A DNA stretch of 33,287 nucleotides from an uncultured delta proteobacterium (lineage in GTDB: Bacteria > Desulfobacterota > WTBG01 > CAIYCZ01 > CAIRTM01): assembly GCA_903911225.1 (NCBI GenBank), contig CAIWCT010000249.1:1-33287 (forward strand), written 5' to 3'. Of the stretch, positions 6,834 to 30,283 are shown in pieces (positions within the stretch are counted from its first letter, which is position 1; every line of letters starts with the position of its first letter). The notes beneath the pieces were generated by a model, which saw only the letters and a program-made list of their open reading frames with translations, was not told where the DNA came from and made no database searches. Both the position numbers and the translations under genes were made by a program.

Positions 6834-7451
6834 TCATGATGGGCTTTCCCCTGGCTTTTTTTTAAAATACCTCCGCCGTACAATCAATAAACCCATTAAC
6901 AGAACTGCAAATACAAGAACGCCGATGCCCAGACAGCTGTGAATCTCTTGAGAGGCTTTAAGCCACTCTTCGCCCGCATAATAGCCCAGAGCCACAAAAG
7001 CCGCAGCCCACACAAAACCTGCTGGATAGGTCGCCGCGGCAAACACCACAAAACGTATACCGAACGTGCCAGCCGTAAACGGGGTTGCCTGCCGAAGCCC
7101 CGGCATGAAATAGCTAAAGGGCATCGCCCACCTGCCCCTGCTGCCTATCAGCGCAACGGCATTACCCAAACGATCCTGGCTGATATTAAAAAAACTAAAA
7201 ATTTTTTTTATAAGATAATATCCGCCGGTGCGGCCCAGAAAGTATGTTATCGTAATGCCGCAGCTGCTTCCGAGAAAAGCCGCCATGGCAGCCCCTGGGC
7301 CGTTCAGGCTTCCTTTAAAAACGAGATAGCCTGCAAGCATCAGTAGCATTTCATCCGGCACGGGTATACCGATAAGACCACCGGCAAAAAATGTGAAGAT
7401 TGCGATATAGCCCCATGAAGAAATCCAGTGTAAAACAGCATCCAGCGGCAT
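6834..7451 (-). CDS. DedA family membrane protein
   Basis: IPVPDEMLLMLAGYLVFKG and GRTGGYYLIKK, MPGLRQATPFTAG motifs. ORF opens at 7490; ATG at 7451 (MPLDAVLHW) lies just downstream of the preceding stop and has a plausible RBS. Confidence 0.85.
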   Translation of the reverse strand: MPLDAVLHWISSWGYIAIFTFFAGGLIGIPVPDEMLLMLAGYLVFKGSLNGPGAAMAAFLGSSCGITITYFLGRTGGYYLIKKIFSFFNISQDRLGNAVALIGSRGRWAMPFSYFMPGLRQATPFTAGTFGIRFVVFAAATYPAGFVWAAAFVALGYYAGEEWLKASQEIHSCLGIGVLVFAVLLMGLLIVRRRYFKKKPGESPS

Positions 7452-7459
7452 GCCTGCTG

Positions 7460-9307
7460 TCAGCTTTCCACGAAGCCATGTTCCGCACACTGGGCGCGGA
7501 AGCAGAAAAATGCCTGGTAAATCCGCAGCGCGTCTGCAATAGGCTGGAAATGAGACGACCTGTTATTGCCGAAATAGATGGTCGGTATCGGTACCGTAGC
7601 AATCCGTTTATGGCTCTCCAGCGCAAACAGAAGCATAATCAGTTCCGTCTCGTAGCGCCCTCCTTTGACGTTCAGCAAAACTTCCTGCAAAAAACTTTTT
7701 TTGAAAGCACGAAAGCCTGATTGCGTATCATGGGGGATGAGGGGATAAAAAAAGCGCATAAATTTATATGTCAGCATGTTGCCCAGACAGCTGCGAATGG
7801 GGATTGAGCCTGGGCGGCTCTTAACCCGGCCCCCGATGACCATGTCTGCATTGTTTTGATGGCACTCATGCACGAGCCTGGGGATGTCGGCAGGGCGATG
7901 TTGCCGATCGCCGTCAATTGTAACAAGAACATCGAATGGTATGTTCTCAAGTGCGTATCGAAACCCCTCAAGCAGGACCACGCCTTTGCCCCGGTTTACG
8001 GGACACGAGACAATATGCAGCCGCCCGTTCATTTCCGCAGCCAGCGATTGTAGAATTGCGCCTGTTTCATCTATGGAACCGTCATTTATTGCAAGTACAT
8101 GCCGGGAGTACTTCAACGCCTCACGGATTACCTCCGCGCATGAATAGGCGACATTATAGCAGGGAATCAGACAGCACACTTCAGCAGGAACAATGCTGTC
8201 AACATGCCAGGCAGTTGGAACCGGCAGGCTGAATGTTTGTTGCTGCGGTACGGGAATTTCCCGCCAGCCTGCGGTATCGAAAAAAAGAAATCGCTGTTCC
8301 AGCTTCACAAAAACCCTTTGCATGGGTGGAAAAACCGAAAGAGGAATCACAATATCTCCATGTCGGCGACCACCGTGGTAGGATGCTTCGGCCACGACCA
8401 TGCCAGAGGCGATATCGCGAAGTTCAATTTTTCCGGAAGCTGCAGGGATCGTCATAACATAGCCTGCGCCGCCATCTATTGAATGGTAGGTAAAGATATA
8501 CAGTTGTGCCTTCCCTATTCCAGCCAGACGATTTTTTAAGGAAATCGAGAGCAACAGTGATGTATTATTTGTAACTAGCGCCATGTGCACCGGGTGCCTC
8601 GTATCGCATTCGACGGGCTTTGTTGAGGGCATATAAAGTTCCTGATCGGAGGCATAGGGTAAAAAACGGATACGGCTGAGTTTCATTTGCGTATTATGGC
8701 GTTCAATGGCGTTTAGTTTACGGATTTTTTGGGCTGGCAATAACGGCAGGTAAATAAGGCTCTGTTGCTTCAGGCCGTTGTGCCCGTAATGCACACAGTA
8801 ATAGATATACTGAAGTCGTGCGGAGGGCTTTGTTATGGTTGCACGGGCAATACTAATAAGGACGCCAAGAGCGCTGTGATCCGGGTGCAGGTCAAGCGGT
8901 GATGGCCCGACAATCAGCGTGGGCTGCCAATCATCGATCTCCGCACTGATACGCTGGAGTATGGCCCCGCTTTCTTTCAGCAAAAGCTCGGTGATTCCCT
9001 GGTCGGGATATCCCCAGAAAACAGCGTTTTCAGGTTGCAAGCCAAGGCAGGCCAGAGAAGCAAGCGCCTCGGCGTTTCGCCGAAAACCCCATCTTATTCT
9101 GTCGGCCGATTCGATACGCCAGCGATGTTCGTCAACCCGTTGCGGCCAGGGATTATTGTCTCCATTGGTCACAAAGATGACTCTGATTGCAGCGCCTGCA
9201 GCGACCGCCTGTTGCAGCAGCCCGCCGGTAGCAAGCGCTTCGTCATCGGGGTGGGCAGCAAAAAGCAATATTCTTGAATTTTCTTGGAATGTCAGGGGTT
9301 TTTTCAT
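7460..9307 (-). CDS. PIG-L (LmbE-like) deacetylase fused to C-terminal GT2 (polyprenol-phosphate mannosyltransferase-like) glycosyltransferase
   Basis: N-terminal AAHPDDEALATGG...HPDHSALG (PIG-L); C-terminal CLIPCYNVAYSCAEVI...INDGSIDETG...VTIDGDRQHRPADIPRL...DTQSGFRAFKK (GT2). Confidence 0.88.
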   Translation of the reverse strand: MKKPLTFQENSRILLFAAHPDDEALATGGLLQQAVAAGAAIRVIFVTNGDNNPWPQRVDEHRWRIESADRIRWGFRRNAEALASLACLGLQPENAVFWGYPDQGITELLLKESGAILQRISAEIDDWQPTLIVGPSPLDLHPDHSALGVLISIARATITKPSARLQYIYYCVHYGHNGLKQQSLIYLPLLPAQKIRKLNAIERHNTQMKLSRIRFLPYASDQELYMPSTKPVECDTRHPVHMALVTNNTSLLLSISLKNRLAGIGKAQLYIFTYHSIDGGAGYVMTIPAASGKIELRDIASGMVVAEASYHGGRRHGDIVIPLSVFPPMQRVFVKLEQRFLFFDTAGWREIPVPQQQTFSLPVPTAWHVDSIVPAEVCCLIPCYNVAYSCAEVIREALKYSRHVLAINDGSIDETGAILQSLAAEMNGRLHIVSCPVNRGKGVVLLEGFRYALENIPFDVLVTIDGDRQHRPADIPRLVHECHQNNADMVIGGRVKSRPGSIPIRSCLGNMLTYKFMRFFYPLIPHDTQSGFRAFKKSFLQEVLLNVKGGRYETELIMLLFALESHKRIATVPIPTIYFGNNRSSHFQPIADALRIYQAFFCFRAQCAEHGFVES

Positions 9308-9322
9308 GGTGTCGCACCTTAT

Positions 9323-11068
9323 TTATGAGAATGGAGAATAACCAAGTGTTTTTGCCTTTGCCCAGACTACAGCCAATTTGCCATTTTGCGCCGCAGGGCG
9401 AAACTCATGCTGCCCTGCCTCCAGAAAACAAGCACTACCGTCATAGGCCTTGCCATCGAGCTGGCCAGCGGTTGAACCGTTTTGTGCAACGATAATATAT
9501 GGTGCAGGTATCCCGATACTAAAGGTTACAGACTGCGCCGCATCGGATGGCGGGGCGAGCAGTTTGCCTGCCACCCGCAGCGAACCGACCGGGATATAAT
9601 TTTCATTGAGAAAAATTCGGGCGCGGCTGGGTAATCGGATGTCATCAAGTGCCGCAACACAAGTGCGTGTGTCAAGCAGCCGTTCCGGAATATCATCGTT
9701 CATGAGGCCGCGCTTGATCCGTGCGCGGGTAATTGTTTCAAGAACATAGTAGGAAGAACGCGGGCGGAAAACAGTTTCCCCCTTCATATCAGCAACAGGA
9801 TCATGCGGACCGGTGAGCCGCAGAATATCGCTGATCAGATTTACCTGCTTAGTTAGACGTTCTTGCCGTGGCGCTACTTCCTGCGCAATTCCCAATATGC
9901 AAATTATCTCAATAAAAACCATACAGGCGGCAATGATGCGTTGCGGCGGGGAAGAAAGCGGATTACAACGCGCGATATGAAGTATACCCTCCGGGAGAAG
10001 CTTCAAGAACACCGGTGTGAGCAAAACTCCTAACAGCGGGTAAAACGGAAGGTAGGACTGCGCGTCTATTACAGGCCAGAACGCATTCAGCGCAAAAAAG
10101 TAAATGCCGCAAACGAAAAGAATAAAAATACGCCGTGTCCGTAAACTGGCAAGAGCCGTTTTTTTACCCATGATTTGTGCAATCGCGTATAGTGCTATAA
10201 GCGATACGGGGAAAATAAGCATGCGCAAATAAGCTTGTTTGTGCCACTTGCCCAGGCCGTGAAGAATATTATGCTGCACTGTTCCATAGTACAATGGCGC
10301 CAAAGCGTCTTTGAAATAAAAGACAAGCACTAATGCTGCAGGTACAATGCATAGACCCGCCAGCAGTGCTGCAGTAAATTTGCCAAAACGGCCGCGGGCC
10401 TGCCGTGAAATATACTGACGGGGGGAAAGAACGACCACAGCCAGTGCGCCGCCTCCCAGGGAACCAAGCAGCAAAGTAGTCTTCATGGATACCCCCAGCG
10501 CCGTACCCAGAAAAAAACCTGCCCAGAAACACTTTGCCGATGTTAACTTTCCGCAAATGAGTAAAGCAAGGGACAGCATCCAGAACATGGCCCAAAGATT
10601 ATCAGTGCGGAACGTACCTGAAAGAATGAAACAAAAGGGGTAAAAGGCCGTAAGCACCGCAGCCCAGAGGCCATAGCGCGCAGAAAAAAGCTCCCGCCCT
10701 ATTAAAAAAACGCACCACAGCGTAATGCAGTACAGCGGGATCATGGTCATCCGCATAGCAAATACCGTGCTCGTGCTTTCTCCAAGAAGCATCAAGAGCG
10801 GAGCATAGAGCATATGAAAAAGAGGGGCATGATTATCGAAAATGTCACGGTATTGCAGGAAACCGTTGGCCCACCCCCACACGACATGGAGATGCTGGGT
10901 TTCATCAGTATCAAAATGGTAATAGAATACAAAGAGCGCCTTCCAAGAAAGGCACAGCGCCAGAGCCAGACAGCCGGCAGCCATTTCGCTTCCGGGTATC
11001 TGAGCCTTTGCTGCAGATTCTGCATGTAACCGACCTGGCAGCGAAAAAAATATTTTCAAGAACCCCAT
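9323..11068 (-). CDS. GT39-like polytopic membrane glycosyltransferase, paralogue of 3441-5147
   Basis: 581 aa; FDTDETQHLHVVWGWANGFLQYRDIFDNHAPLFHML; C-terminal FRPRSSYYVLETITRARIKRGLMNDDIPERLL and VGSLRVAGKLL shared with paralogue. Confidence 0.78.
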   Translation of the reverse strand: MGFLKIFFSLPGRLHAESAAKAQIPGSEMAAGCLALALCLSWKALFVFYYHFDTDETQHLHVVWGWANGFLQYRDIFDNHAPLFHMLYAPLLMLLGESTSTVFAMRMTMIPLYCITLWCVFLIGRELFSARYGLWAAVLTAFYPFCFILSGTFRTDNLWAMFWMLSLALLICGKLTSAKCFWAGFFLGTALGVSMKTTLLLGSLGGGALAVVVLSPRQYISRQARGRFGKFTAALLAGLCIVPAALVLVFYFKDALAPLYYGTVQHNILHGLGKWHKQAYLRMLIFPVSLIALYAIAQIMGKKTALASLRTRRIFILFVCGIYFFALNAFWPVIDAQSYLPFYPLLGVLLTPVFLKLLPEGILHIARCNPLSSPPQRIIAACMVFIEIICILGIAQEVAPRQERLTKQVNLISDILRLTGPHDPVADMKGETVFRPRSSYYVLETITRARIKRGLMNDDIPERLLDTRTCVAALDDIRLPSRARIFLNENYIPVGSLRVAGKLLAPPSDAAQSVTFSIGIPAPYIIVAQNGSTAGQLDGKAYDGSACFLEAGQHEFRPAAQNGKLAVVWAKAKTLGYSPFS

Positions 11069-11207
11069 AGCTCATTATCCAGAAAGATATGATGAGTAGT
11101 ATATTCCGGCAAAACCTTATATAAGAATCCTTGCCAGAAACACATGCTGCCTTTGTCGAATCGGCAGCATTGCTTTACCATCTACAAGTTAACCATATCA
11201 GCTAAAT

Positions 11208-11235
11208 CTTACGGAATGCTTACAGGAGGGTTAAA
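11208..11235 (-). promoter_or_regulatory. Candidate response-regulator box D (three 11-bp-spaced half sites) upstream of 9323-11068
   Basis: Minus strand TTTAAC-CCTCC-TGTAAG-CATTC-CGTAAG; same phase as sites A-C. Confidence 0.5.
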
Positions 11236-11261
11236 ACAATTTCATTTTTAACTACCAGTAA

Positions 11262-12695
11262 CTAGCAGGATGTTGGGAAAGTTAAGGTAACGGTGGTTCC
11301 GCTCGCAGGTGTGCTCTGGATTTGTATGCTCCCGCCATGGAGATCCATGATTGATTTGGCAATAGCAAGGCCCAAGCCCGTGCCTTGCCCGGAAGCAGTT
11401 TTTGCTTTATCGCTTCTATAAAATCGATCAAAGACCTTATCAATGGCAGACTCTTCTATGCCGATGCCGGTATCCCGTATTTGAACACTGACAGTATCAT
11501 TATAGTGCCCTATGCTGATGTCGATTTTTCCACCCGGTGGCGTATAGCGAATTGAGTTTGATAATATGTTGCTTATGACACGCCGAAACAATGAAAGATC
11601 AGCATTCAGTGATGCTGCGCCCCGACAGGTGACTTCTATATTCTGCTGCTCAATCAGAGCATCATAGTATTCCAGCATGGCCTTTATTTCCCCAAAAACA
11701 TCAAAAACAGTGGGCTCAAGTATAATATCGGTGCTTTCAGCTTTCGCAAGAAAGAGCAGACTTTTGATTATATTTGCCAGCTTATCATACTCTTCAAGAT
11801 TTAGTTCAATATGGTGCTGATACTCCTGGGTTGTTCGGGGTTTGGAAAGTATAACTTCAGCCTCTCCCATAAGCGCGTTGATCGGGTTGCGCAATTCATG
11901 GGCAATATTGGACGAAAACTGAGAAAGCCGGGAAAATGAATTTTGCAGATGATCAAGCATCTGATCAAATGAAGATGCAAGTTCGGTAAGTTCCCTGGGC
12001 CACAGAGATGGATTCACCCGTTCATGCAGTTTCGTGCTTCTTATTCTCCTGATGGCGTCGGTTATATCTTTCAGGGGTTGCATACCTTTGCGGGCAATAA
12101 AAAAACCAGCGGCGGCAGAAAATAAAATCCCCAGAACAAGCATACCGATTACTTGATTTTTATACTCATTGAGCATTCCCTGTTCTCTGGATATATCCAG
12201 TGCAACTTGAAGAAGTCTTTTTTCAGTAGGGGAGACTCCGACATTTGCCCATTCAGACTTTAAAAGATACAATCTTCCATCAGGAGTGCTTTTTTTCCAG
12301 CCTTTCAACGGTTCTTTATCAAATTTCAAAGGCTCTAAAAAAAACGTTGAAAGCAGGGGATTCTCTTTGTTGGAAAATTCAAATACTTTTGCGCCTTTTT
12401 CATCTAAAATCCTGACATAATTAGCAAGGGGAGAGCCTTCCCCTTCATTAACTTCCTCTTGTAACAACTGCAGATTATCAGGATGCTCTTTTAAAATAGT
12501 ACGCAGGTCATGAATTTTCTCGACAAGAAACTCGTTGTCTTCTCCTTCCAGATTATGCATCAAAGCGAAATATAAATAACCGGTTATTGCGGCAAGTATT
12601 CCAAATGCCGAAAGCATGTAGAACAGAGTAAGCCTATAGGTGATTGAGATGGCCTTGTTTTTATTATCTTTTTTCAAAAACATATCCTGCCCCAC
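11262..12695 (-). CDS. Sensor histidine kinase (CusS/PmrB-like, HAMP + HisKA + HATPase)
   Basis: FSSNIAHELRNPINALMGEAE (H box), NILSNSIRYTPPGG (N box), DTGIGIEESAIDKVFDRFYR, GTGLGLAIAKSI; two TM segments. Confidence 0.94.
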   Translation of the reverse strand: MGQDMFLKKDNKNKAISITYRLTLFYMLSAFGILAAITGYLYFALMHNLEGEDNEFLVEKIHDLRTILKEHPDNLQLLQEEVNEGEGSPLANYVRILDEKGAKVFEFSNKENPLLSTFFLEPLKFDKEPLKGWKKSTPDGRLYLLKSEWANVGVSPTEKRLLQVALDISREQGMLNEYKNQVIGMLVLGILFSAAAGFFIARKGMQPLKDITDAIRRIRSTKLHERVNPSLWPRELTELASSFDQMLDHLQNSFSRLSQFSSNIAHELRNPINALMGEAEVILSKPRTTQEYQHHIELNLEEYDKLANIIKSLLFLAKAESTDIILEPTVFDVFGEIKAMLEYYDALIEQQNIEVTCRGAASLNADLSLFRRVISNILSNSIRYTPPGGKIDISIGHYNDTVSVQIRDTGIGIEESAIDKVFDRFYRSDKAKTASGQGTGLGLAIAKSIMDLHGGSIQIQSTPASGTTVTLTFPTSC

Positions 12696-13335
12696 GAACC
12701 GTATGAATAAGCTTTATTTCAAACAGATCATCGACCTTTGCACGAAGCCTGAGTATCGCCACATCAACAATATTTCTATCGCTTTCGAAATTTATATCCC
12801 AAACATGTTCGGCTATAGTCGAGCGAGACAAAACCTGCCCTTGGTTTTGCACGAGATAATTTAATAAAACAAATTCCTTTGGCGTCAACTCAATAAGAGT
12901 TTCTCCACGCATTACTTTATGGGATGCTGAGTCAATCTCAAGGTCTGCTATTTTTATTTTTCCGATCTGTCGTACCTGACCACGCTTCAAAAGAGCATAT
13001 ATCCTAGCAAGGAGTTCAGAAAAGGCAAATGGCTTAATAAGATAATCATCTGCACCCAGTGTCAGCCCCCGTACCCGATCCTGCACTTTGTCGCAAGCGG
13101 TCAGGAAAAGCACCGGCGTTTGTTGCCCTTTCTTTCGCAGCTCGCTTAAAACAGACCACCCATCCAGTTCCGGAAGCATTACATCCAGAACAATAAGATC
13201 ATAATTAATGGTAAGTGCACAATGAAGCCCATCGTCCCCCCGATGCATAGCGTCTACGACAAAACCGTTTTCGGTAAGACCTTTTTTAAGATAATCAGCC
13301 GTACGAATCGAATCTTCAATAATTAAAATTCGCAT
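12664..13335 (-). CDS. OmpR-family response regulator (CusR/PmrA-like)
   Basis: MRILIIEDS...LDVMLPELDGW...TPVLFLTACD...LTLGADDYLIKPFAFSELLARI; winged helix TPKEFVLLNYL...GAGYVFE. ORF GTG at 13350, ATG at 13335 fits the family start; overlaps the kinase ORF. Confidence 0.94.
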   Translation of the reverse strand: MRILIIEDSIRTADYLKKGLTENGFVVDAMHRGDDGLHCALTINYDLIVLDVMLPELDGWSVLSELRKKGQQTPVLFLTACDKVQDRVRGLTLGADDYLIKPFAFSELLARIYALLKRGQVRQIGKIKIADLEIDSASHKVMRGETLIELTPKEFVLLNYLVQNQGQVLSRSTIAEHVWDINFESDRNIVDVAILRLRAKVDDLFEIKLIHTVRGAGYVFEKR

Positions 13336-13383
13336 AATGCCCTGTCCCACTATTAAATTTAGATTAATTAATAGCTTTTGCTG

Positions 13384-13411
13384 ATTACGCGAGAATTAAA
13401 CGGGGATTAAA
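13384..13411 (-). promoter_or_regulatory. Candidate response-regulator box A (autoregulatory) upstream of the response regulator
   Basis: Minus strand TTTAAT-CCCCG-TTTAAT-TCTCG-CGTAAT; followed 10 nt later by TATTAA (-10-like). Confidence 0.6.
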
Positions 13412-13509
13412 TGTTGTTCATATGGATAATGGTTGGAGGAATGGCAATGCCGGCTTGTTCCTGTATCAAAACCGGCTGTCACAGTCTGTTGACTCTTGGG
13501 TGGCACATT

Positions 13510-15504
13510 TTATTTCCGGAGGGCTTCAGGCGGCAGGTGATAGAGCTGGTTGTAGTAGAGATACCCGGGCAGCAGGGCATGCGCCAGGGCATTCTTGGCA
13601 AGCTCGGGGTCAAGTTCCGCAGAAGTCAGCCGCCCATCGGAATAGACAAACTGTTCCGGCTCCATATGGGGCTGCAGCAGGACAACCCGGTTGTCTTCCA
13701 TAAAGGCATTCGTGTCTCCATACTGCATAATGGCCCTGCCTTTGATAGTGTCCGGCAGGCTTAAAAGCGCTCTGCCCGGTACCGGGTGCTCGGTGCTGAT
13801 GCCCATAAGGTCAAGAAGCGTGGGTGTCATATCGATCTGGCTTGCTACCTTATCATAGGTACCGGGTTTGACATTTGGCCCAATAAGCAGTCCTGTAATA
13901 TGAAATTTATGCACGGGTATCAGGTCCTGGCCCTGAAGCCGCGTGCTGTGGTCGGCAATAATCAGAAAAAGCGTATTCTTGTAGTAGGACTCTTTTTTCG
14001 CCATCTCGAAAAATTTTCCAACGGCATAATCAGCATACTTGACAGCATTATTGCGGGTCGCCTTGGGCTGTTCATAGAGGTCGATACGTCCTTCGGGAAA
14101 GTCATACGGGTCGTGGTTCGATGTGGTCAAAACAAGGGCAAAAAAGGGCGCGTCCCCCTTTTTCGTGAATATTTCGTTGGCCTTATTAAAAAGATCCTCA
14201 TCAGAGACGCCCCAGGCGGCGGTAAACAGAGGGCTTTTGATGTCCCCTTTATCATAGATTTCCTGTATGCCGTTGCCGAGGAAAAAACCGCTCATGCTGT
14301 CAAATGTCCGCCTGCCGCCATAGATAAAATCGGTTGCATAGCCCTTGCGGCGCAGCAGCTCGGCGATAGTGAAAAAGTTTTTTTGCGACAGGCCGAGCTT
14401 CACCGTGCTTTCGCCTGCTGTTGGCAGGAACCCTGACATGATGGCCTCAATGCCCCGAATTGTTCTAATGCCGGTGCTGTAGAGTTGTGTCAGCAGCGTT
14501 CCCTCTTTGCTCAGCCGGTCTATGTTCGGCGTCAGTGGCAGGCCGCCCAGACAGCCGACATATTCAGCACCGAGACTTTCCTGAAGGATGATGACAAGAT
14601 TTACCGGCTTCTCCGGGGAAAAACGTGACTGCTGGTAATGCAGCAGCGGTATATCGAGGTTTCTGCATGCCTCTGCGCTAATCCCCTCATGGGAGCGGAT
14701 TTGCGAAAGTATTTCTGCGGGGTTCATGTCGCCATACAGTTTTCGCGGATCGGTTTCCATTTTTAAATTTGTATAGAATGCATAGCAAAGCGAATATGTT
14801 GAGTTGAGAGCAAGCTGGTTTGCAAGATGGTTTGATGAAAAAAAGGCAAGGCTGATATTGGCAGGGTGCTTTATAAATGTCGAACGGGCGCCTATTGTCA
14901 GCAGAATCCCACCGACCGCGAGCAAAAGCAGCCTTTGCTTAAAGGAACGCTCTTTGGCCTGTTTAAAAAGTTTTTGGGAAAATTTGTATACAAACAGAAA
15001 GATGAGCACCACGGCCAGAAGTCCGCAGGCCAGGCTCACCCTGTGCCCCTTCAGTATCATGGCAAAAACCTCACGCACTTGAACCATATGCTCCAAAAAA
15101 ACACGGTCAAGGCGCGTGTCGAACTCATCAATAAAGGGAAAGGTAGCAATTTCAAGAAAAGCAAACACCGATGCAAGGGCTGCGAAACAGACAGAAAACA
15201 CCCAGCATATCTTGGCCATAACCTTTCGGGGCAAAAAAACCACGGCAAGCAACGGGATTATGAGCACGTAGCAGAGCAGTATTGTATCGATCCTGAAACC
15301 GATGGGAATAATCCTAAAATAATTCTTAACTTCTACCAATCTGTTGAAATTTTCCGCACACAGGATAAATCTAAAGAAAGTAAAAATAAAAAGGCCAACA
15401 AGGTAAAAAAGGACCATCGGGGCTAGAGGCTGCAGAAACGACAGCCGCTCTTTAATAAGACTTTTTTTAACGGCTGCATTATGTGGAAGCTGTTTCATAT
15501 TCAT
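13510..15504 (-). CDS. LTA synthase family / sulfatase-type phosphatidyl-headgroup transferase
   Basis: 664 aa; five N-terminal TM segments, LVIILQESLGAEYVGCLGG...TPNIDRLSKEGTLLTQLYSTGIRTIRGIEAIMSGFLP, LIIADHSTRL, SQIDMTPTLLDLMG. Confidence 0.9.
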   Translation of the reverse strand: MNMKQLPHNAAVKKSLIKERLSFLQPLAPMVLFYLVGLFIFTFFRFILCAENFNRLVEVKNYFRIIPIGFRIDTILLCYVLIIPLLAVVFLPRKVMAKICWVFSVCFAALASVFAFLEIATFPFIDEFDTRLDRVFLEHMVQVREVFAMILKGHRVSLACGLLAVVLIFLFVYKFSQKLFKQAKERSFKQRLLLLAVGGILLTIGARSTFIKHPANISLAFFSSNHLANQLALNSTYSLCYAFYTNLKMETDPRKLYGDMNPAEILSQIRSHEGISAEACRNLDIPLLHYQQSRFSPEKPVNLVIILQESLGAEYVGCLGGLPLTPNIDRLSKEGTLLTQLYSTGIRTIRGIEAIMSGFLPTAGESTVKLGLSQKNFFTIAELLRRKGYATDFIYGGRRTFDSMSGFFLGNGIQEIYDKGDIKSPLFTAAWGVSDEDLFNKANEIFTKKGDAPFFALVLTTSNHDPYDFPEGRIDLYEQPKATRNNAVKYADYAVGKFFEMAKKESYYKNTLFLIIADHSTRLQGQDLIPVHKFHITGLLIGPNVKPGTYDKVASQIDMTPTLLDLMGISTEHPVPGRALLSLPDTIKGRAIMQYGDTNAFMEDNRVVLLQPHMEPEQFVYSDGRLTSAELDPELAKNALAHALLPGYLYYNQLYHLPPEALRK

Positions 15505-15647
15505 CCTTATTTTTTATCCGCAGAGCCTGAGGACAATGAGGTTTTTGCCCCTGTATCTGCACTGGCGGTTAATATGCCGGGCTTGATGGGGTCTTGAAGA
15601 TCCATGGTCATTTGTTTTTGTATCTTAAGCTTATTTATATGCGCTAT

Positions 15648-15675
15648 GTTAAACAAGAGTTAAAGACAAATTAAA
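15648..15675 (-). promoter_or_regulatory. Candidate response-regulator box B upstream of 13510-15504
   Basis: Minus strand TTTAAT-TTGTC-TTTAAC-TCTTG-TTTAAC; three half sites at exact 11-bp period, then 8 nt and TATAAA. Confidence 0.6.
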
Positions 15676-15857
15676 TTTATTTCATCACATCAAAATACGC
15701 GAGCATGGCTCACATGTCCACTTAAAAACAATTGAATTTACAGTAAGTTATAGTAATCTTTTTTTTTATTGCATCGTATTGCCTGCATGAAATTTTTTCG
15801 ATTAAGCTATTCAGCCTAACCCACCTTAAATTCGTTTTTTTTAAATCATTACATTTT

Positions 15858-15874
15858 CTTAATTAGCTTTTAAC
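15858..15874 (+). promoter_or_regulatory. Candidate response-regulator box C upstream of 15944-17941
   Basis: CTTAAT-TAGCT-TTTAAC followed after 8 nt by CATAAA; same half-site spacing as boxes A, B, D. Confidence 0.5.
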
Positions 15875-15943
15875 CTTTAATTCATAAACACATGCTAATT
15901 TTCTCAACAATTAAAAAAGTACGCCAACAACAGGAGATACACT

Positions 15944-17941
15944 GTGTGCGATAAAACTGCGCCCCTTCAGCAAAACAGCATTACATCAGCATTAGGCAGT
16001 ATCAAGCATGCCGGGGGCGCCTTTGATTTTGCCTCATCAACGCCATTTTTCAAACTGCTTGCAGCAGTGGCTGCCGTTTTTTTATTTTTATCAACTGGTA
16101 CGCGTTGCACCCTGCTGTGGCAAAGCGCAGCCGAGGTGGACTTCTCGGCATGGATACTTATAAAAACTTTTGTGGCTGGTTTTTTTTATGATGCCGTGAC
16201 ATGCACCTATGTCCTGGCGCCCCTGACGGCGCTACTTGCCTTTGCACCTGCGGATTTGTTTACCGGTCGCAGGCTGAAATTTCTTTTCTATGGCTTTATT
16301 TTTGCGCTATTTGCCGTTCTTGTCTTTACGGCCTGCGCTGAGTATTTTTTCTGGGAGGAGTTTGAAACACGGTTCGATTTTGTAGCTGTCGATTACCTGG
16401 TATATCAGCGTGAAGTTACGGACAATATCAGGCAGTCATATCCTCTCAAAATAATTTTTCCTGCCATCTGCATGGGCACTCTTATGCTTTTTGCCGCGGT
16501 GAAGCGCCCCATCGACCGCTGCCTGCAACAGCCTGCTTTCTGGCAGCACCGGACCGCAATCGGCTGCGTTCTGTTCCTGCTTCCCCTGTGCAGCGCAATC
16601 TTCATCAGCGACTCGTTCAGCAAAATATCGGCCAACAGGCTTAACAACAATCTTGCCATGAACGGGATATACTCTTTTTTTGAAGCTTTGCGGAACAACC
16701 ATATGGACTATACACAGCAGTATGCAACTCTGGACAATGACGAAGTATCCCATCGCTTAAGACTGGCCGTTGACCCGAGCAATAAAACATTTATAAATCC
16801 TCCAGGCTCAGAGCCCGATATTTGGCGTATTACAAAAAACAGCGCAGAACCCGAAACCCGGCATAATGTAGTCGTTGTTGTGATTGAAAGCATGAGTGCA
16901 GAATTCATGCATACTTTTGGCAATCGTGATAACCTTTCCCCCAACCTGGATGAGCTTGCTCAACAGGGGTTGCTCTTTACCAATCTGTATGCCAATGGCA
17001 CCCGAACGGTTCGCGGCCTTGAAGCCATAGCGCTGTCCGTCCCGCCGACGCCTCCCGAATCTGTTGTGAGGCGGCCCAATAATGACGGACTTTTCACTAT
17101 AGCAACACCCTTCATGCGTCGGGGCTATGACGCCATGTTTTTATATGGCGGGTACAGCTATTTCGACAATATGGCGACATTTTTTGGCGGTAACGGCTTT
17201 TCAGTTATTGACCGCGGAGACCTTGCCCGCGATGAAATAAACTTCTCGAATGCCTGGGGTGTCTGCGACCAGGACATGTACCGCCGCGTTGTGCGTGAGG
17301 CCGATACTGTTCAGGGCAGGGGCGGTAATTTTTTTATGGTTGTCATGACCACTTCAAACCACCGGCCGTTCACCTATCCTAAGGGTAAAATCGATATCCC
17401 TTCGGGAAAAGGAAGATCCGGCGGGGTGAAATACAGTGATTTTGCCATCGGCGAGTTTATCAAGAACGCGTCAACACACCCTTGGTTCGACAACACAATT
17501 TTTATATTTGTTGCCGATCACTGCGCTCGCAGCGGCGGCAAGAATGAAATTCCCGTTGACAATTATCATATACCCTGCATATTTTATGCGCCGAAGATAG
17601 TGAAGCCCGGCACGGTCGATGGTATTGCAAGCCAGATAGACATAGCGCCAACACTTTTTGACCTGCTTAACTGGCAGTATACGAGCAGCTTTGTCGGGAA
17701 ATCAGTCTTTAAAATGCAGCCGGAAGAGCACAGGGCCTTCATCAGCAATCATATGACTTTGGGGTATTTAAAGGGTGATATGCTGGTGGCGCTGGAGCCC
17801 GGCGGAAAGGTGAATACCTATAAAGTCGACCCGGCATCGCATACCGAGCAACAGGTTGCCTCTCAGCAACCCGTTATCGATGAAGCCATAACCTATTACC
17901 AGGGCATAAGCAGCATGCTCAACAGCAAGCTAAAACGCTGA
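15944..17941 (+). CDS. LTA synthase family / sulfatase-type transferase (divergent paralogue)
   Basis: 665 aa, GTG start after AACAGGAGATA; VVVVIESMSAEFMHTFG...SPNLDELAQQGLLFTNLYANGTRTVRGLEAIALSVPPTP; FVADHCARSGG; SQIDIAPTLFDLL. Confidence 0.9.
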   Translation: MCDKTAPLQQNSITSALGSIKHAGGAFDFASSTPFFKLLAAVAAVFLFLSTGTRCTLLWQSAAEVDFSAWILIKTFVAGFFYDAVTCTYVLAPLTALLAFAPADLFTGRRLKFLFYGFIFALFAVLVFTACAEYFFWEEFETRFDFVAVDYLVYQREVTDNIRQSYPLKIIFPAICMGTLMLFAAVKRPIDRCLQQPAFWQHRTAIGCVLFLLPLCSAIFISDSFSKISANRLNNNLAMNGIYSFFEALRNNHMDYTQQYATLDNDEVSHRLRLAVDPSNKTFINPPGSEPDIWRITKNSAEPETRHNVVVVVIESMSAEFMHTFGNRDNLSPNLDELAQQGLLFTNLYANGTRTVRGLEAIALSVPPTPPESVVRRPNNDGLFTIATPFMRRGYDAMFLYGGYSYFDNMATFFGGNGFSVIDRGDLARDEINFSNAWGVCDQDMYRRVVREADTVQGRGGNFFMVVMTTSNHRPFTYPKGKIDIPSGKGRSGGVKYSDFAIGEFIKNASTHPWFDNTIFIFVADHCARSGGKNEIPVDNYHIPCIFYAPKIVKPGTVDGIASQIDIAPTLFDLLNWQYTSSFVGKSVFKMQPEEHRAFISNHMTLGYLKGDMLVALEPGGKVNTYKVDPASHTEQQVASQQPVIDEAITYYQGISSMLNSKLKR

Positions 17942-17958: not shown

Positions 17959-19569
17959 ATGACTGAAACATCAGGGGCTGGAATAAATCGCAACTGGGCT
18001 ATTGCCTTCTGCATGCTGAGCGCGGCATTTATTCTTTTTTTTAATCTTGGCGGCAGATCTATTGAAAACAACGATTACCCGCATTTCGCCGAAATCGGAC
18101 GGGAAATCCTTGAAACCGGCGACTGGGTCATCATGCACAGCGGCGGGGAAATATATGTCCAAAAGCCGCCCCTGCATACTATTTTTATAGCTCTTTCAGA
18201 TAAGGTTTTTGGAATCAATGCATTCGCCGGGCGTTTCCCGGCAGCTTTTTTTGCGTTACTCGGGGTCTGCGCAACGCTTTTATTTGGCCTGCGTATGGAC
18301 AGGCAAAAGTGGCAAACCGGTGTTTACGGGGCCATGCTGCTGCTCTCAAGCTACGGCTTTTTCTTTCTGGCGCGCAGGTTTCGCAATGACATAGAGTATG
18401 CGATGCTTTTTTCGCTTGCCCTTTTTTCATTTTATGAGGGGTATGAAGCTCTAATGGCCCGGCGTAAATGGATTTCTTACGGGCTGTTCTGGTTTTTTAT
18501 GGGCCTTGCCGCACTCATTAAAGGGCCTGCGGCGCTCCTGCCGCTTCTTATTATTGCTGTTTTCCTCCTTGTGACTAAAAGCTGGGGCAAGGTAGGCAGC
18601 AAGATATTTTTTGTATCATTTACCGCTTTTTTTGTCGTCGTGGCGCCGTATCTGCTGCTGCTGGTAAGCCATAAGGACTTTGCCCAATTTTCCGAAATGC
18701 TGAGGACTTCAATAATCATGAAACGTAATGCCGGGCTTTTTTATTATATCCCGGTTTTCCCGGCTAAATTTTTCCCAGGGTCTCTTCTTCTTTTTGCCTG
18801 CCTACCTTTGTTCTGGAAAAAGCGCCGCGAGATCGCAGCCAATCCAAAATTGCTCTTCCTTGCCATCTGGTCAGGGCTGTATCTGATTCTAATCCATTTT
18901 ATCAAGGCCAAGGTCTACCGCTACCTGCTGCCTGTTTTTCCGCCGCTGTCGCTCTTAACCGCCTGGGGCATCGGGCAGGTTCTGCCCCTTGAACGGTGGG
19001 CACCCTATGTGAAGCGGTTTTGGAAAATACCCGCCGCGCTTATCTGCCTGGGCTTTCCAATTGCCATCTGCATGAAGTGGGGCTTTATGTGGCAGGCTCT
19101 TGTGCTGGCTGTCGCAGCTTTAGGCATGCTGGCAGTGGCTGGCGGCAAGATGCGCGATGCCGTTGTTCTTCTGTGCACCCTGTGTATTGCCTGTATGCTT
19201 TTTATCGATGTACTGCATACCGCCCGAAACAAAGAGGTTTCTACTAATAAGAAACTGTATGCCATGCTTCAGGAAAGACAAATCAAGGACAATGAAGTGC
19301 TCATCTATAAAACGACCGGCAGGGTACGGTATATACTTTGTTTTTATTTTAACAAACTTATCCATCCTGAAATTGAAGATACCCTCACCCTGCACCCGGG
19401 CATCAGGGCGGTTATTACCGATCCGGGAAACGTGGAGGACGTAACAACAGTGTTTGGCCCTTCTTCCGAGCAGCGCATTGTTAAGGGGCATAAAGGTGAG
19501 GAGAGCGAGGGAGATCATGTGATTATTTTTTACGGTAGCGGGGCTTCTCCCAATCCAGCCGGTGTATGA
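17959..19569 (+). CDS. ArnT/PMT-like GT39 membrane glycosyltransferase
   Basis: 536 aa, IENNDYPHFAEIGREILETGDWVIMHSGGEIYVQKPPLHTIFIAL; LARRFRNDIEYAMLFSLALFSFYEG. Confidence 0.87.
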   Translation: MTETSGAGINRNWAIAFCMLSAAFILFFNLGGRSIENNDYPHFAEIGREILETGDWVIMHSGGEIYVQKPPLHTIFIALSDKVFGINAFAGRFPAAFFALLGVCATLLFGLRMDRQKWQTGVYGAMLLLSSYGFFFLARRFRNDIEYAMLFSLALFSFYEGYEALMARRKWISYGLFWFFMGLAALIKGPAALLPLLIIAVFLLVTKSWGKVGSKIFFVSFTAFFVVVAPYLLLLVSHKDFAQFSEMLRTSIIMKRNAGLFYYIPVFPAKFFPGSLLLFACLPLFWKKRREIAANPKLLFLAIWSGLYLILIHFIKAKVYRYLLPVFPPLSLLTAWGIGQVLPLERWAPYVKRFWKIPAALICLGFPIAICMKWGFMWQALVLAVAALGMLAVAGGKMRDAVVLLCTLCIACMLFIDVLHTARNKEVSTNKKLYAMLQERQIKDNEVLIYKTTGRVRYILCFYFNKLIHPEIEDTLTLHPGIRAVITDPGNVEDVTTVFGPSSEQRIVKGHKGEESEGDHVIIFYGSGASPNPAGV

Positions 19570-27528: not shown

Positions 27529-30069
27529 TTACTGCTTCGGCTTATGCCGTATTGCCTCTCTGTATTGTTCAAATTTAAATTTCGGATCATCATCAGGCCC
27601 ATGACAGGTTCGGCATATCTGCTCGACAACACAGTTGTCGCATGAACCGCCGAGGCCGACGATGTAGTCCTGACCTTTCTTCTGAGGATCTTTCACATGC
27701 CGTTCTCCAGGCCCGTGACATACCTCACACTGAACACCCTGTGCGCCCGGGGCCGGATAACCGCCGGGGCTGCCCGAGACTGTGATGAAACGATATTTTT
27801 TATCAGACGGAGCAGATGCAGCGGCTGGTGAATTAGCTGCAGCTGCATGGGCGGTTTTAGACCATTGTGCATACTCCTGCTCATGGCACTTCATACATGA
27901 TCCCACACCTGCATACGATGCCGGATTTTCGAAAAGATCGTTTTTGCGCTTATGCTCGCTCAACAATTTCACACGCTGCTCCCGGCTCATGGAAGCAATG
28001 TCGGGGACAAAGCTGTGCAAAACCCTTGGAAAACGACGGGCAAAATTGAAGTTAAGCGATTCCCTTTCCGTATGGCACGACAAACACAGGGCCTTCCATT
28101 CTCCCGCATTTTTCTTTTGCGGCTTAACGCCGGTAAAGGCCGGGCAGGCCTCATGGCCCGGGCCATGGCACACTTCGCACTGTACGCCTTCTAATGTCCT
28201 CGCATCCTTTTTATCGTTAATGGCATAGCCGCCGGGATTGCCCCATCCCGTGACATGGCAGCTCACGCAGGCAGGATCTTCCTCCCTGCCTTTGCGTTGC
28301 AGCGATTTAAACGCATAGGGGTGCCCGGTGAGGCTCCACTGATTATGCTCATTTTCATGACAAATCACGCAGTGATCCTGCCCCGAATATCCTTTGGGAT
28401 CCAGAAGAGGCTTATTCGGCAGTCCGCACAGTTTGCGCAGCCCCATAAGAAACAAATGCATCTTCCGGCCTGAAAAACCTGTATGCTGGGTAAAAATGCG
28501 GCCTGAACGATCTATAATATACCCCATAGGCACAACGCCTGAAAACGACGGAAACAGAGACGAAATTCGATTGTCCGTGTTCAGCACAACAGGGAAAGTA
28601 TAGCCCTGCGATTCAATAAATTTAGCGGTGGTCTCCTGATTAAGACGACTCACAGCAACAAGAAAAAACCTGCCCTTAAATTCCTCTCCCACCATCAGAC
28701 TGTTGAGAAATGCAAGCTCATCACGGCAATGGGGGCATGAGGGAGAAAACACAACCAGTACAACAGGCTTTTTTTCATAGAGCTGCTTAATGTTCATGGT
28801 CGTGTTGTCCATTGCCGTAGCCTCAAAAAAAGGCACTGGCGGCCTGTCGCCAAGGACAGGCTCGTCAGAAGGGATAAAACCAATTTTGATAATACGGTTG
28901 ACGTACACATGCAGAGCCTGGGAGAAATTCGTCTGAGGCGGAATATTTGCAGCAGCCAGGCTGCTCATAAGTTCGCCCTGCTTGTTAAATATATACAGAG
29001 AAAGATCGCCCGCGAGATTCAGGCCTTTTGCCGCCGCTTGCGGATTTTCAAGAAGCAGGGGGAAGGTAACGTTCTGCTGCTGATTGAATGTAACAACCTC
29101 ATCGGTGCGGTTGTCATTGAGATTAAGGCCCAATACCTCCAAATTATATTCACCTTTGATGCGATACATGTCCTGCATAAACATAACAGCTTCGCCTGCG
29201 TAGGGATTGTCGATAGAATAGGCAAGAAGTATGATTGTTTTTCCCTTGTAGAGCTCAGTATCAAAAGGCGCAGATACAGGCTGGCGTGGAGAAATGGGCT
29301 TGACAGGAGCAGTAGCATAAGGCTGCGAAAAAACGGTCCTCACGGTTGGCAGCAATAAGCATAAAAGCGCAGCCACGATAATTTTTTTTCTTATCTCGTG
29401 GCGTTTCTTTCCCTCACGCAACATGGCAAGCCATTTTTCACGGTAAAAAAAGGCCAGCGCTACGGCTACAGCGCTCAGCGCCAGCACGATCACCAGTACT
29501 TTATTGTTATGGTTTCGTGAGCAGCTGCCGGCCAGGGACAGCAGAATAGTACCCAGCAGCCTCCCAACAGTTGAAATCATCATGAAATGGCTGATTTTCA
29601 TATGGCTCAGGCCTATGATGTAGCACAGGGAGTCTTTGGGGAATCCAGGGACCAGAAACAGGACAAACGAGACGAGCGAGCCCTGGTGCTCCATGAAGTC
29701 ATCATACTTCTTTATATGTTCCTGGCTGATTGCTTTCTCGACAAAGGGAAGACCGAATAAACGTGCCAGCAAAAAGGCGAGCCATGAGCCGATGGTGAGA
29801 CCTATGGTCGAGTAAATCGTTCCCCAGAGCGGGCCGTAGAGATAGCCGCCAATAAAACCGGTTACCTCACCGGGGATGGGTGCAACAATCACCTGCGCGA
29901 TCTGAAGGCCGATGAGCATCAGGACGGAATAAGGGCCGAAGGAGTTTATAAGGCGAATCGCCTTTTCTTCCTGGGTGAAGTAGGTGTGCAGATTATACTG
30001 AAAGCAAAAATAGATCCCTGCAGTGACGATAACCAGTAGCAGAACGGTTCTGAGTACGATCTTTTTCAT
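27529..30069 (-). CDS. Fusion: TVP38/DedA-like membrane domain + two thioredoxin-like domains + seven-CXXCH multiheme cytochrome c
   Basis: N-terminal PIPGEVTGFIGGYLYGPLWGTIYSTIGLTIGSWLAFLLARLFG; redoxin FSPSCPHCRDELAFL; CVICH, CVSCH, CEVCH, CLSCH, CMKCH, CEVCH, CRTCH. ORF opens with TTG at 30090; ATG at 30069 preferred. Confidence 0.88.
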   Translation of the reverse strand: MKKIVLRTVLLLVIVTAGIYFCFQYNLHTYFTQEEKAIRLINSFGPYSVLMLIGLQIAQVIVAPIPGEVTGFIGGYLYGPLWGTIYSTIGLTIGSWLAFLLARLFGLPFVEKAISQEHIKKYDDFMEHQGSLVSFVLFLVPGFPKDSLCYIIGLSHMKISHFMMISTVGRLLGTILLSLAGSCSRNHNNKVLVIVLALSAVAVALAFFYREKWLAMLREGKKRHEIRKKIIVAALLCLLLPTVRTVFSQPYATAPVKPISPRQPVSAPFDTELYKGKTIILLAYSIDNPYAGEAVMFMQDMYRIKGEYNLEVLGLNLNDNRTDEVVTFNQQQNVTFPLLLENPQAAAKGLNLAGDLSLYIFNKQGELMSSLAAANIPPQTNFSQALHVYVNRIIKIGFIPSDEPVLGDRPPVPFFEATAMDNTTMNIKQLYEKKPVVLVVFSPSCPHCRDELAFLNSLMVGEEFKGRFFLVAVSRLNQETTAKFIESQGYTFPVVLNTDNRISSLFPSFSGVVPMGYIIDRSGRIFTQHTGFSGRKMHLFLMGLRKLCGLPNKPLLDPKGYSGQDHCVICHENEHNQWSLTGHPYAFKSLQRKGREEDPACVSCHVTGWGNPGGYAINDKKDARTLEGVQCEVCHGPGHEACPAFTGVKPQKKNAGEWKALCLSCHTERESLNFNFARRFPRVLHSFVPDIASMSREQRVKLLSEHKRKNDLFENPASYAGVGSCMKCHEQEYAQWSKTAHAAAANSPAAASAPSDKKYRFITVSGSPGGYPAPGAQGVQCEVCHGPGERHVKDPQKKGQDYIVGLGGSCDNCVVEQICRTCHGPDDDPKFKFEQYREAIRHKPKQ

Positions 30070-30079
30070 GAAACCCGTT

Positions 30080-30283
30080 TCAGCCTGCAACTTTTCCGAA
30101 ATCCGTCTTTTTCGCTCCGGCAGGTGTTTCGGGCTTGTCGAGTTCCTGCATCGACTTCTTGAATTCCCGCATGCCCTTTCCCAATTGCCCGCCGATTTCG
30201 CCCAGTTTTCCAGGGCCGAATATGATAAGTGCTATAATGAGAATCACGATAAGATGCATTGGTTGAAAAAATCCTTCAAACAT
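30080..30283 (-). CDS. tatA: Twin-arginine translocase TatA/E-like subunit
   Basis: 67 aa; [35 protein letters not shown] (TM + FGPGKL hinge + amphipathic helix). Confidence 0.9.

Follow-up and report, generated by a model that had tools for sequence, protein, structure and literature searches.

In enterobacteria, lipid A modification genes, arnT among them, belong to the PmrA regulons, and in pho promoters the box lies at a fixed distance to the -10 element, in place of a -35 element. The PmrA box itself consists of head-to-tail hexamer half-sites with a five-nucleotide spacer, CTTAAT-N5-CCTAAG (PMC3973317). The published CusR/CopR-type boxes are palindromic (ATTACA-N4-TGTAAT; ATTCATnnATGTAAT), and the paralogous regulators of the Pseudomonas CusRS, CopRS and CzcRS systems act on one box beside an accessory-system gene (PMC11195947). 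For AgrR, an additional direct repeat in phase has been described (PMC7380067), a point of resemblance to the locus treated here. The locus described here lies on a 33,287-nt stretch of DNA from an uncultured delta proteobacterium (the window). It shares with PmrA/BasR the head-to-tail hexamers with N5 spacers, and the window has an ArnT-like GT39 gene (17959-19569); it differs in having three half-sites, in a regulator that is not PmrA by the curated model, and in its targets, which are LTA-synthase-like, GT39, GT2, DegT and hydrolase genes. With the CusR/CopR/CzcR/AgrR group it has in common the subfamily of its regulator and kinase and the TGTAAT half-site of the CusR-like boxes; unlike the published boxes of that type, however, the repeats are head-to-tail triples, and the neighbours are glycan/lipid genes rather than efflux genes. 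A sharing of one box by paralogous regulators, as in Pseudomonas, is only inferred here, and it would concern envelope glycan genes instead of copper resistance. Direct repeats, the 11-bp period and the fixed -10 distance also recall the PhoB pho box, but the E. coli half-site is CTGTCAT, and the Pho-linked 11-bp repeats of the same genome read CTTAAC/CTTTAT. The latter are found on contigs C296, C136 and C93 (L142, L140, L138), beside PhoB/PhoR-like genes, PhoU and a DUF3450-ExbB-TonB run, and are probably the Pho box of the lineage.

The window system comprises a response regulator of the OmpR/PhoB family, CusR/CopR subfamily (12664-13350, minus strand, ATG at 13335; PF00072 and PF00486, TIGR01387), and a sensor histidine kinase of the CusS/CopS subfamily (11262-12695, minus; TIGR01386 394 bits, cutoff 292). 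The preliminary description had likened box A to the PmrA/BasR box; curated models place the regulator not with PmrA but with CusR/CopR, at 317 bits for TIGR01387 (cutoff 279) and 180 bits for the PmrA model (cutoff 330). A search with the kinase returned only distant matches in the genome contigs, which were left out of the comparison. No metal efflux or resistance genes stand beside the system, whose neighbours are GT39, PIG-L-GT2, DedA and LTA-synthase-like genes, and metal sensing is suggested by its subfamily membership only. Elsewhere in the window, an 853-aa ORF (27529-30090, minus) combines VTT/DedA, AhpC/TSA-type thioredoxin and multihaem cytochrome (c554/MtrC-like) domains.

Four triple repeats lie around this system. 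Box A (TTTAAT-N5-TTTAAT-N5-CGTAAT, 13384-13411, minus) precedes the response regulator gene and is followed by the -10-like element TATTAA (13368-13373, minus). Box B (TTTAAT-N5-TTTAAC-N5-TTTAAC, 15648-15675, minus), with TAAATA at +10 (15632-15637, minus; alternatively TATAAA, two bases nearer), precedes the gene for LTA-synthase/phosphoglycerol-transferase-like membrane protein 1 (13510-15504, minus), which has the PF00884 sulfatase fold and falls below the cutoff of the NCBIfam LtaS and phosphoglycerol transferase models. A 34-codon ORF (MTMDLQDPIKPGILTASADTGAKTSLSSGSADKK, 15507-15611, minus) ends just before this gene, in the leader of promoter B, and is possibly a leader peptide or a chance frame. 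Box C (CTTAAT-N5-TTTAAC-N5-ATTCAT, 15858-15885, plus), followed by TAATTT (15896-15901, plus), precedes the gene for the second protein of this type (15944-17941, plus; PF00884). Box D (TTTAAC-N5-TGTAAG-N5-CGTAAG, 11208-11235, minus) starts 27 nt past the kinase stop and is followed by TATGGT (11192-11197, minus) and by three genes on the same strand, encoding a GT39/PMT-like glycosyltransferase (9323-11068; PF13231), a PIG-L deacetylase fused to a GT2 domain (7460-9307; PF02585, PF00535) and a DedA/VTT protein (6834-7490; PF09335).

Direct reading agrees exactly with the sequences and coordinates first given for these boxes, and the exact 11-bp half-site period holds in all four. Box C had been described with two half-sites; a third, ATTCAT (15880-15885), had been missed, and the full box reads CTTAAT-TAGCT-TTTAAC-CTTTA-ATTCAT, with a near twin in a genome of the same genus (TTTAAT-tagct-TTTAAC-cggta-ATTCAT, G001:C369). 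Each box therefore has three half-sites at an exact 11-bp period, and the -10-like hexamer, which had been placed 8-11 nt behind the last half-site, is present in every case but begins, with TA, exactly 10 nt later. The PmrA-box form YTTAAK-N5-YTTAAK, also proposed earlier, is matched exactly by the pair in box A and by none of B, C and D.

To examine period and spacing outside the locus, we took the 11 half-sites of the window as the only source of a half-site matrix and scored with it the regions upstream of 14 LTA-synthase genes that lie elsewhere than in the window locus; one of these is on another contig of the same genome, and 13 come from other genomes in the family and class. The best triple score averaged 13.7 at period 11 against 2.5-5.7 at periods 7-10 and 12-18, and a score of at least 12 was reached by ten of the 14 regions at period 11 and by none to two at any other period from 7 to 18, so that the matrix scan of related loci called for by the preliminary description gave a unique peak. 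TA stood at +10 in 13 of 13 external sites (ten from the automatic scan and three operon-start or divergent sites from a wider scan, none picked by its -10) and at other offsets in 0-3. Over 676 kb of loci, 61 period-11 triples scoring at least 12 were intergenic and four coding, with 1-7 intergenic at other periods, a count that is biased upward because some loci entered the set by matching the motif.

Genome-wide counts, which rest on pattern searches, gave a similar contrast with the reversed control. Three half-sites followed by N10 and TA occur seven times in the 4.86-Mb genome against two in the control, four of the seven being boxes A-D; this number is partly circular, as the pattern was drawn after A-D were seen, while the other tests are not circular. 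In nine family genomes the same pattern gives 42 matches against seven. The simple two-half-site motif is not enriched genome-wide (10 vs 7), so the third half-site and the spacing carry the signal. The YTTAAK-N5-YTTAAK pair has 10 matches in the genome against 14 in the reversed control. With a period of 11 and 10 nt to the -10 in all 13 external sites and in A-D, the data support a reading of the four as OmpR/PhoB-type direct-repeat promoter boxes that are kept in related genomes before lipid/glycan-modification genes.

The four boxes had been presented as a single motif, which scoring with two class matrices, made from sites of other genomes plus one hydrolase site of the same genome, rules out. 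The glycan-type matrix gives 25.0, 26.2 and 21.5 bits for A, B and C and 7.7 for D, while the CusR-like matrix gives 1.6, 2.7 and -4.4 bits for A, B and C and 20.7 for D. By sequence, then, A, B and C match a family-wide glycan box and D a different, CusR-like box. When own-genome sites are left out of the glycan matrix, matches of at least 15 bits are found in the window only at A, B and C, with about 0.06 expected in its intergenic DNA; the 20.7 bits of box D come from the CusR-like matrix of other genomes, and in 3 Mb of simulated intergenic DNA no score rose to 20. Taking a match to the other-genome matrix together with an envelope glycan/lipid gene, A, B and C belong to a family-wide glycan/LTA box regulon and D does not. 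The CusR-like box reads TGTAAT-N5-TGCAAT-N5-TGTAAK, and three of the five examples have TATACT 10 nt further on; such boxes were found near CusR-like systems in genomes G002, G004 and G005.

The position of box D is shared with these systems. A period-11 triple starts -4 to +32 nt from the kinase stop in seven of nine CusR-like systems (the window, C450 of the same genome, G001:C69, G002, G005:C125, G007:C46 and G054), for which the chance is about 0.0004 per locus, on the assumption that loci are independent, which related genomes are not. Cognate-looking boxes directly behind the kinase lie at L133 9839-9866, L130 9522-9549, L134 11093-11120, L132 2279-2306, L288 3434-3461 and in L129. Box D is the window copy of this CusR-like arrangement, and its place behind the kinase gene gives good support to control by the window system. 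The kinase pair had been proposed to control itself plus the surrounding lipid and glycan genes; that part of the proposal which concerns D is supported, whereas control of A-C, which score as glycan-type, is possible. A separate clade, the C293/C112-type systems, carries TTTAAT-like triples 11-12 nt behind the kinase (L286 9463-9490 and L287 9595-9622, in G001 and G003); the small ORFs that follow, which like all context ORFs were called mechanically, have no Pfam match. In the same genome as the window, a sister system at C43 adjoins a Ca/Mg-type P-type ATPase and has a weak triple repeat upstream (L137 1595-1611, 1711-4386).

The glycan box is widespread in related genomes. It precedes LTA1-like genes in G001:C70, G005:C114, G006:C32, G007:C25, G007:C95 and G011:C3, and LTA2-like genes in G003:C90, G005:C77, G006:C277 and G007:C58. 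In G003:C165 it precedes a GT39/PMT gene whose product is 57% identical to that of 17959-19569 in the window, in G009:C297 a GT2-PMT, in G005:C77 a DegT-GT2, and in G013:C156 a GT2 behind a C219-like two-component system (gene order RR-HK-box-GT2). An alpha/beta hydrolase gene carries it in four genomes (C253 of the same genome, G001:C369, G003:C165 and G005:C77). The box sequence shared by G003:C90:4-43 and G003:C165:99-138, at contig ends that probably overlap, was counted once. The conservation that the preliminary description asked for is thus seen across genera, before LTA-synthase-like, GT39/PMT, GT2, DegT and alpha/beta-hydrolase genes. Among distant LTA-synthase homologues, from families elsewhere in the phylum, no such box was seen. 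Because spacers and flanks vary while the half-sites, period and -10 spacing are constant, selection appears to act on the box.

Which regulator reads A-C may be approached from its distribution. Members of the C219-type clade occur in the same genome (C219) and at G001:C70, G003:C160, G005:C53, G006:C32, G008:C27, G009:C199, G010:C506 and, as a basal member, G013:C156, and a paralogue of this type is present in most genomes with a glycan box. It adjoins LTA1 in G001, G006 and G008 and GT2/PMT in the genome of the window and in G005; in G006, glycan boxes stand at LTA1 and LTA2, and LTA1 lies upstream of the C219-type pair on one strand. Genomes G006, G009 and G013 have glycan boxes and no window-clade regulator, so another regulator must read the boxes there, while G002 and G004 have the window-clade regulator and neither a C219-type regulator nor LTA1/LTA2 matches. 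Together these distributions favour the C219-type regulator as the reader. There are two exceptions: in G011 one LTA gene carries a glycan box, yet neither clade has a regulator above threshold, and in G007 four LTA promoters carry such boxes, yet no C219-type regulator was detected. Further points against this reader are that the C219 operon itself shows no glycan box and that a C293-type system, too, has a TTTAAT-like box behind its kinase. Absences are soft in general, the genome of the window being a 455-contig assembly of 85.5% completeness.

The recognition helices tell a compatible story. They read NVVDVAIRRLR in the CusR-like sisters, NIVDVAILRLR in the window, NIIDVHINRLR in the C219 type and NVIDVYINYLR in the C293 type. 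In PmrA, base specificity is proposed to be set by the residues that correspond to H and N of the C219-type helix (PMC3973317), and with His at the base-determining position this helix is nearer to PmrA than the window helix is. Against the PmrA model, the C219-type regulator scores 193 bits, also below the cutoff of 330. The helix comparison agrees with the C219-type regulator as glycan-box reader and does not prove it. We propose, at a probability of roughly one half, a cascade: the window regulator would drive D, and A-C would form part of a conserved envelope regulon whose main reader is the C219-type regulator.

A rival to this is the single-regulator reading of the preliminary description, in which the window regulator would serve A-D by itself, as autoregulation plus a local regulon; its specificity would then have broadened after its departure from the CusR-like clade. 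The boxes are all found within 4.7 kb of the regulator gene and share one architecture; the window helix has lost an Arg (AIRRLR to AILRLR) that is kept by the CusR-like sisters reading TGTAAT; and in G007, the exception above, the regulator nearest to the window clade, its closest sister C46, has a behind-kinase box intermediate between the classes. Set against this are the CusR-like scores of A-C, at most 2.7 bits compared with 20.7 for D, the persistence of the glycan box in genomes without the window clade, and the absence of such a box before the regulator gene in the paralogues closest by kinase identity, and we regard this reading as rather unlikely. It is more improbable still that A-C are read by another OmpR/PhoB regulator, either the C293/C112-type system or PhoB under phosphate limitation. 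The triples behind C293-type kinases in G001 and G003 would suit the former, and the related 11-bp repeats of the PhoB/PhoR locus (C296) and PhoU region (C136) the latter, but the Pho-type boxes have different half-sites and reach 9.5-14.0 on the glycan matrix, where A-C reach 21.5-26.2. Nor did the C293 clade turn up in G005, G006, G007, G008 or G013, several of which have glycan boxes. A chance origin of the repeats in AT-rich intergenic DNA is hardly credible, since the missing enrichment of the two-half-site motif, which would fit it, is outweighed by the uniqueness of the period, the fixed distance to the -10, the conservation seen across genera and the control counts, which refute it for the set; a single box could nonetheless be inactive, C being the weakest of A-C.

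In the proposed cascade, A-D would be four response-regulator-dependent promoters of one architecture and two specificities. The three tandem half-sites would lie at about -51 to -23, the last replacing the -35 element, followed by 10 nt to the -10 hexamer; by analogy with PhoB and PmrA, the phosphorylated regulator would bind the half-sites head to tail and contact RNA polymerase at the -35 position. Box D would couple the signal of the window kinase to the PMT, PIG-L-GT2 and DedA run. Boxes A-C would be copies of the family-wide glycan/lipid box, with the C219-type paralogue encoded elsewhere as their most likely main reader; A would put the window system itself under the envelope regulon, and B and C would add the two LTA-synthase-like genes. 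To the observed sequences, period, spacing, conservation, box classes and location behind the kinase, this scheme adds what we infer, namely the pairing of proteins with boxes, a role in activation and not repression, and the signal.

We found no description of a glycan-box regulon in the open-access literature. It is tempting to speculate, although we hold the idea only tentatively, that a CusR/CopS-like metal-type system was drawn into a regulon for envelope glycans: its promoter would have gained box A, its ancestral box D behind the kinase would now serve glycosyltransferase genes, and the outcome would be a two-tier cascade of paralogous regulators with boxes set apart by a few bases in each half-site. 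A positional rule, by which the cognate box sits immediately after the kinase gene, helps in assigning boxes to regulators, and paralogous regulators with matched boxes of TGTAAT, TTTAAT and CTTAAC type in one genome family would offer a natural series for following how OmpR/PhoB specificity is changed or retained. For this uncultured bacterial lineage, the boxes group LTA-synthase-like, GT39 and aminosugar genes into a regulon that can be put to the test.
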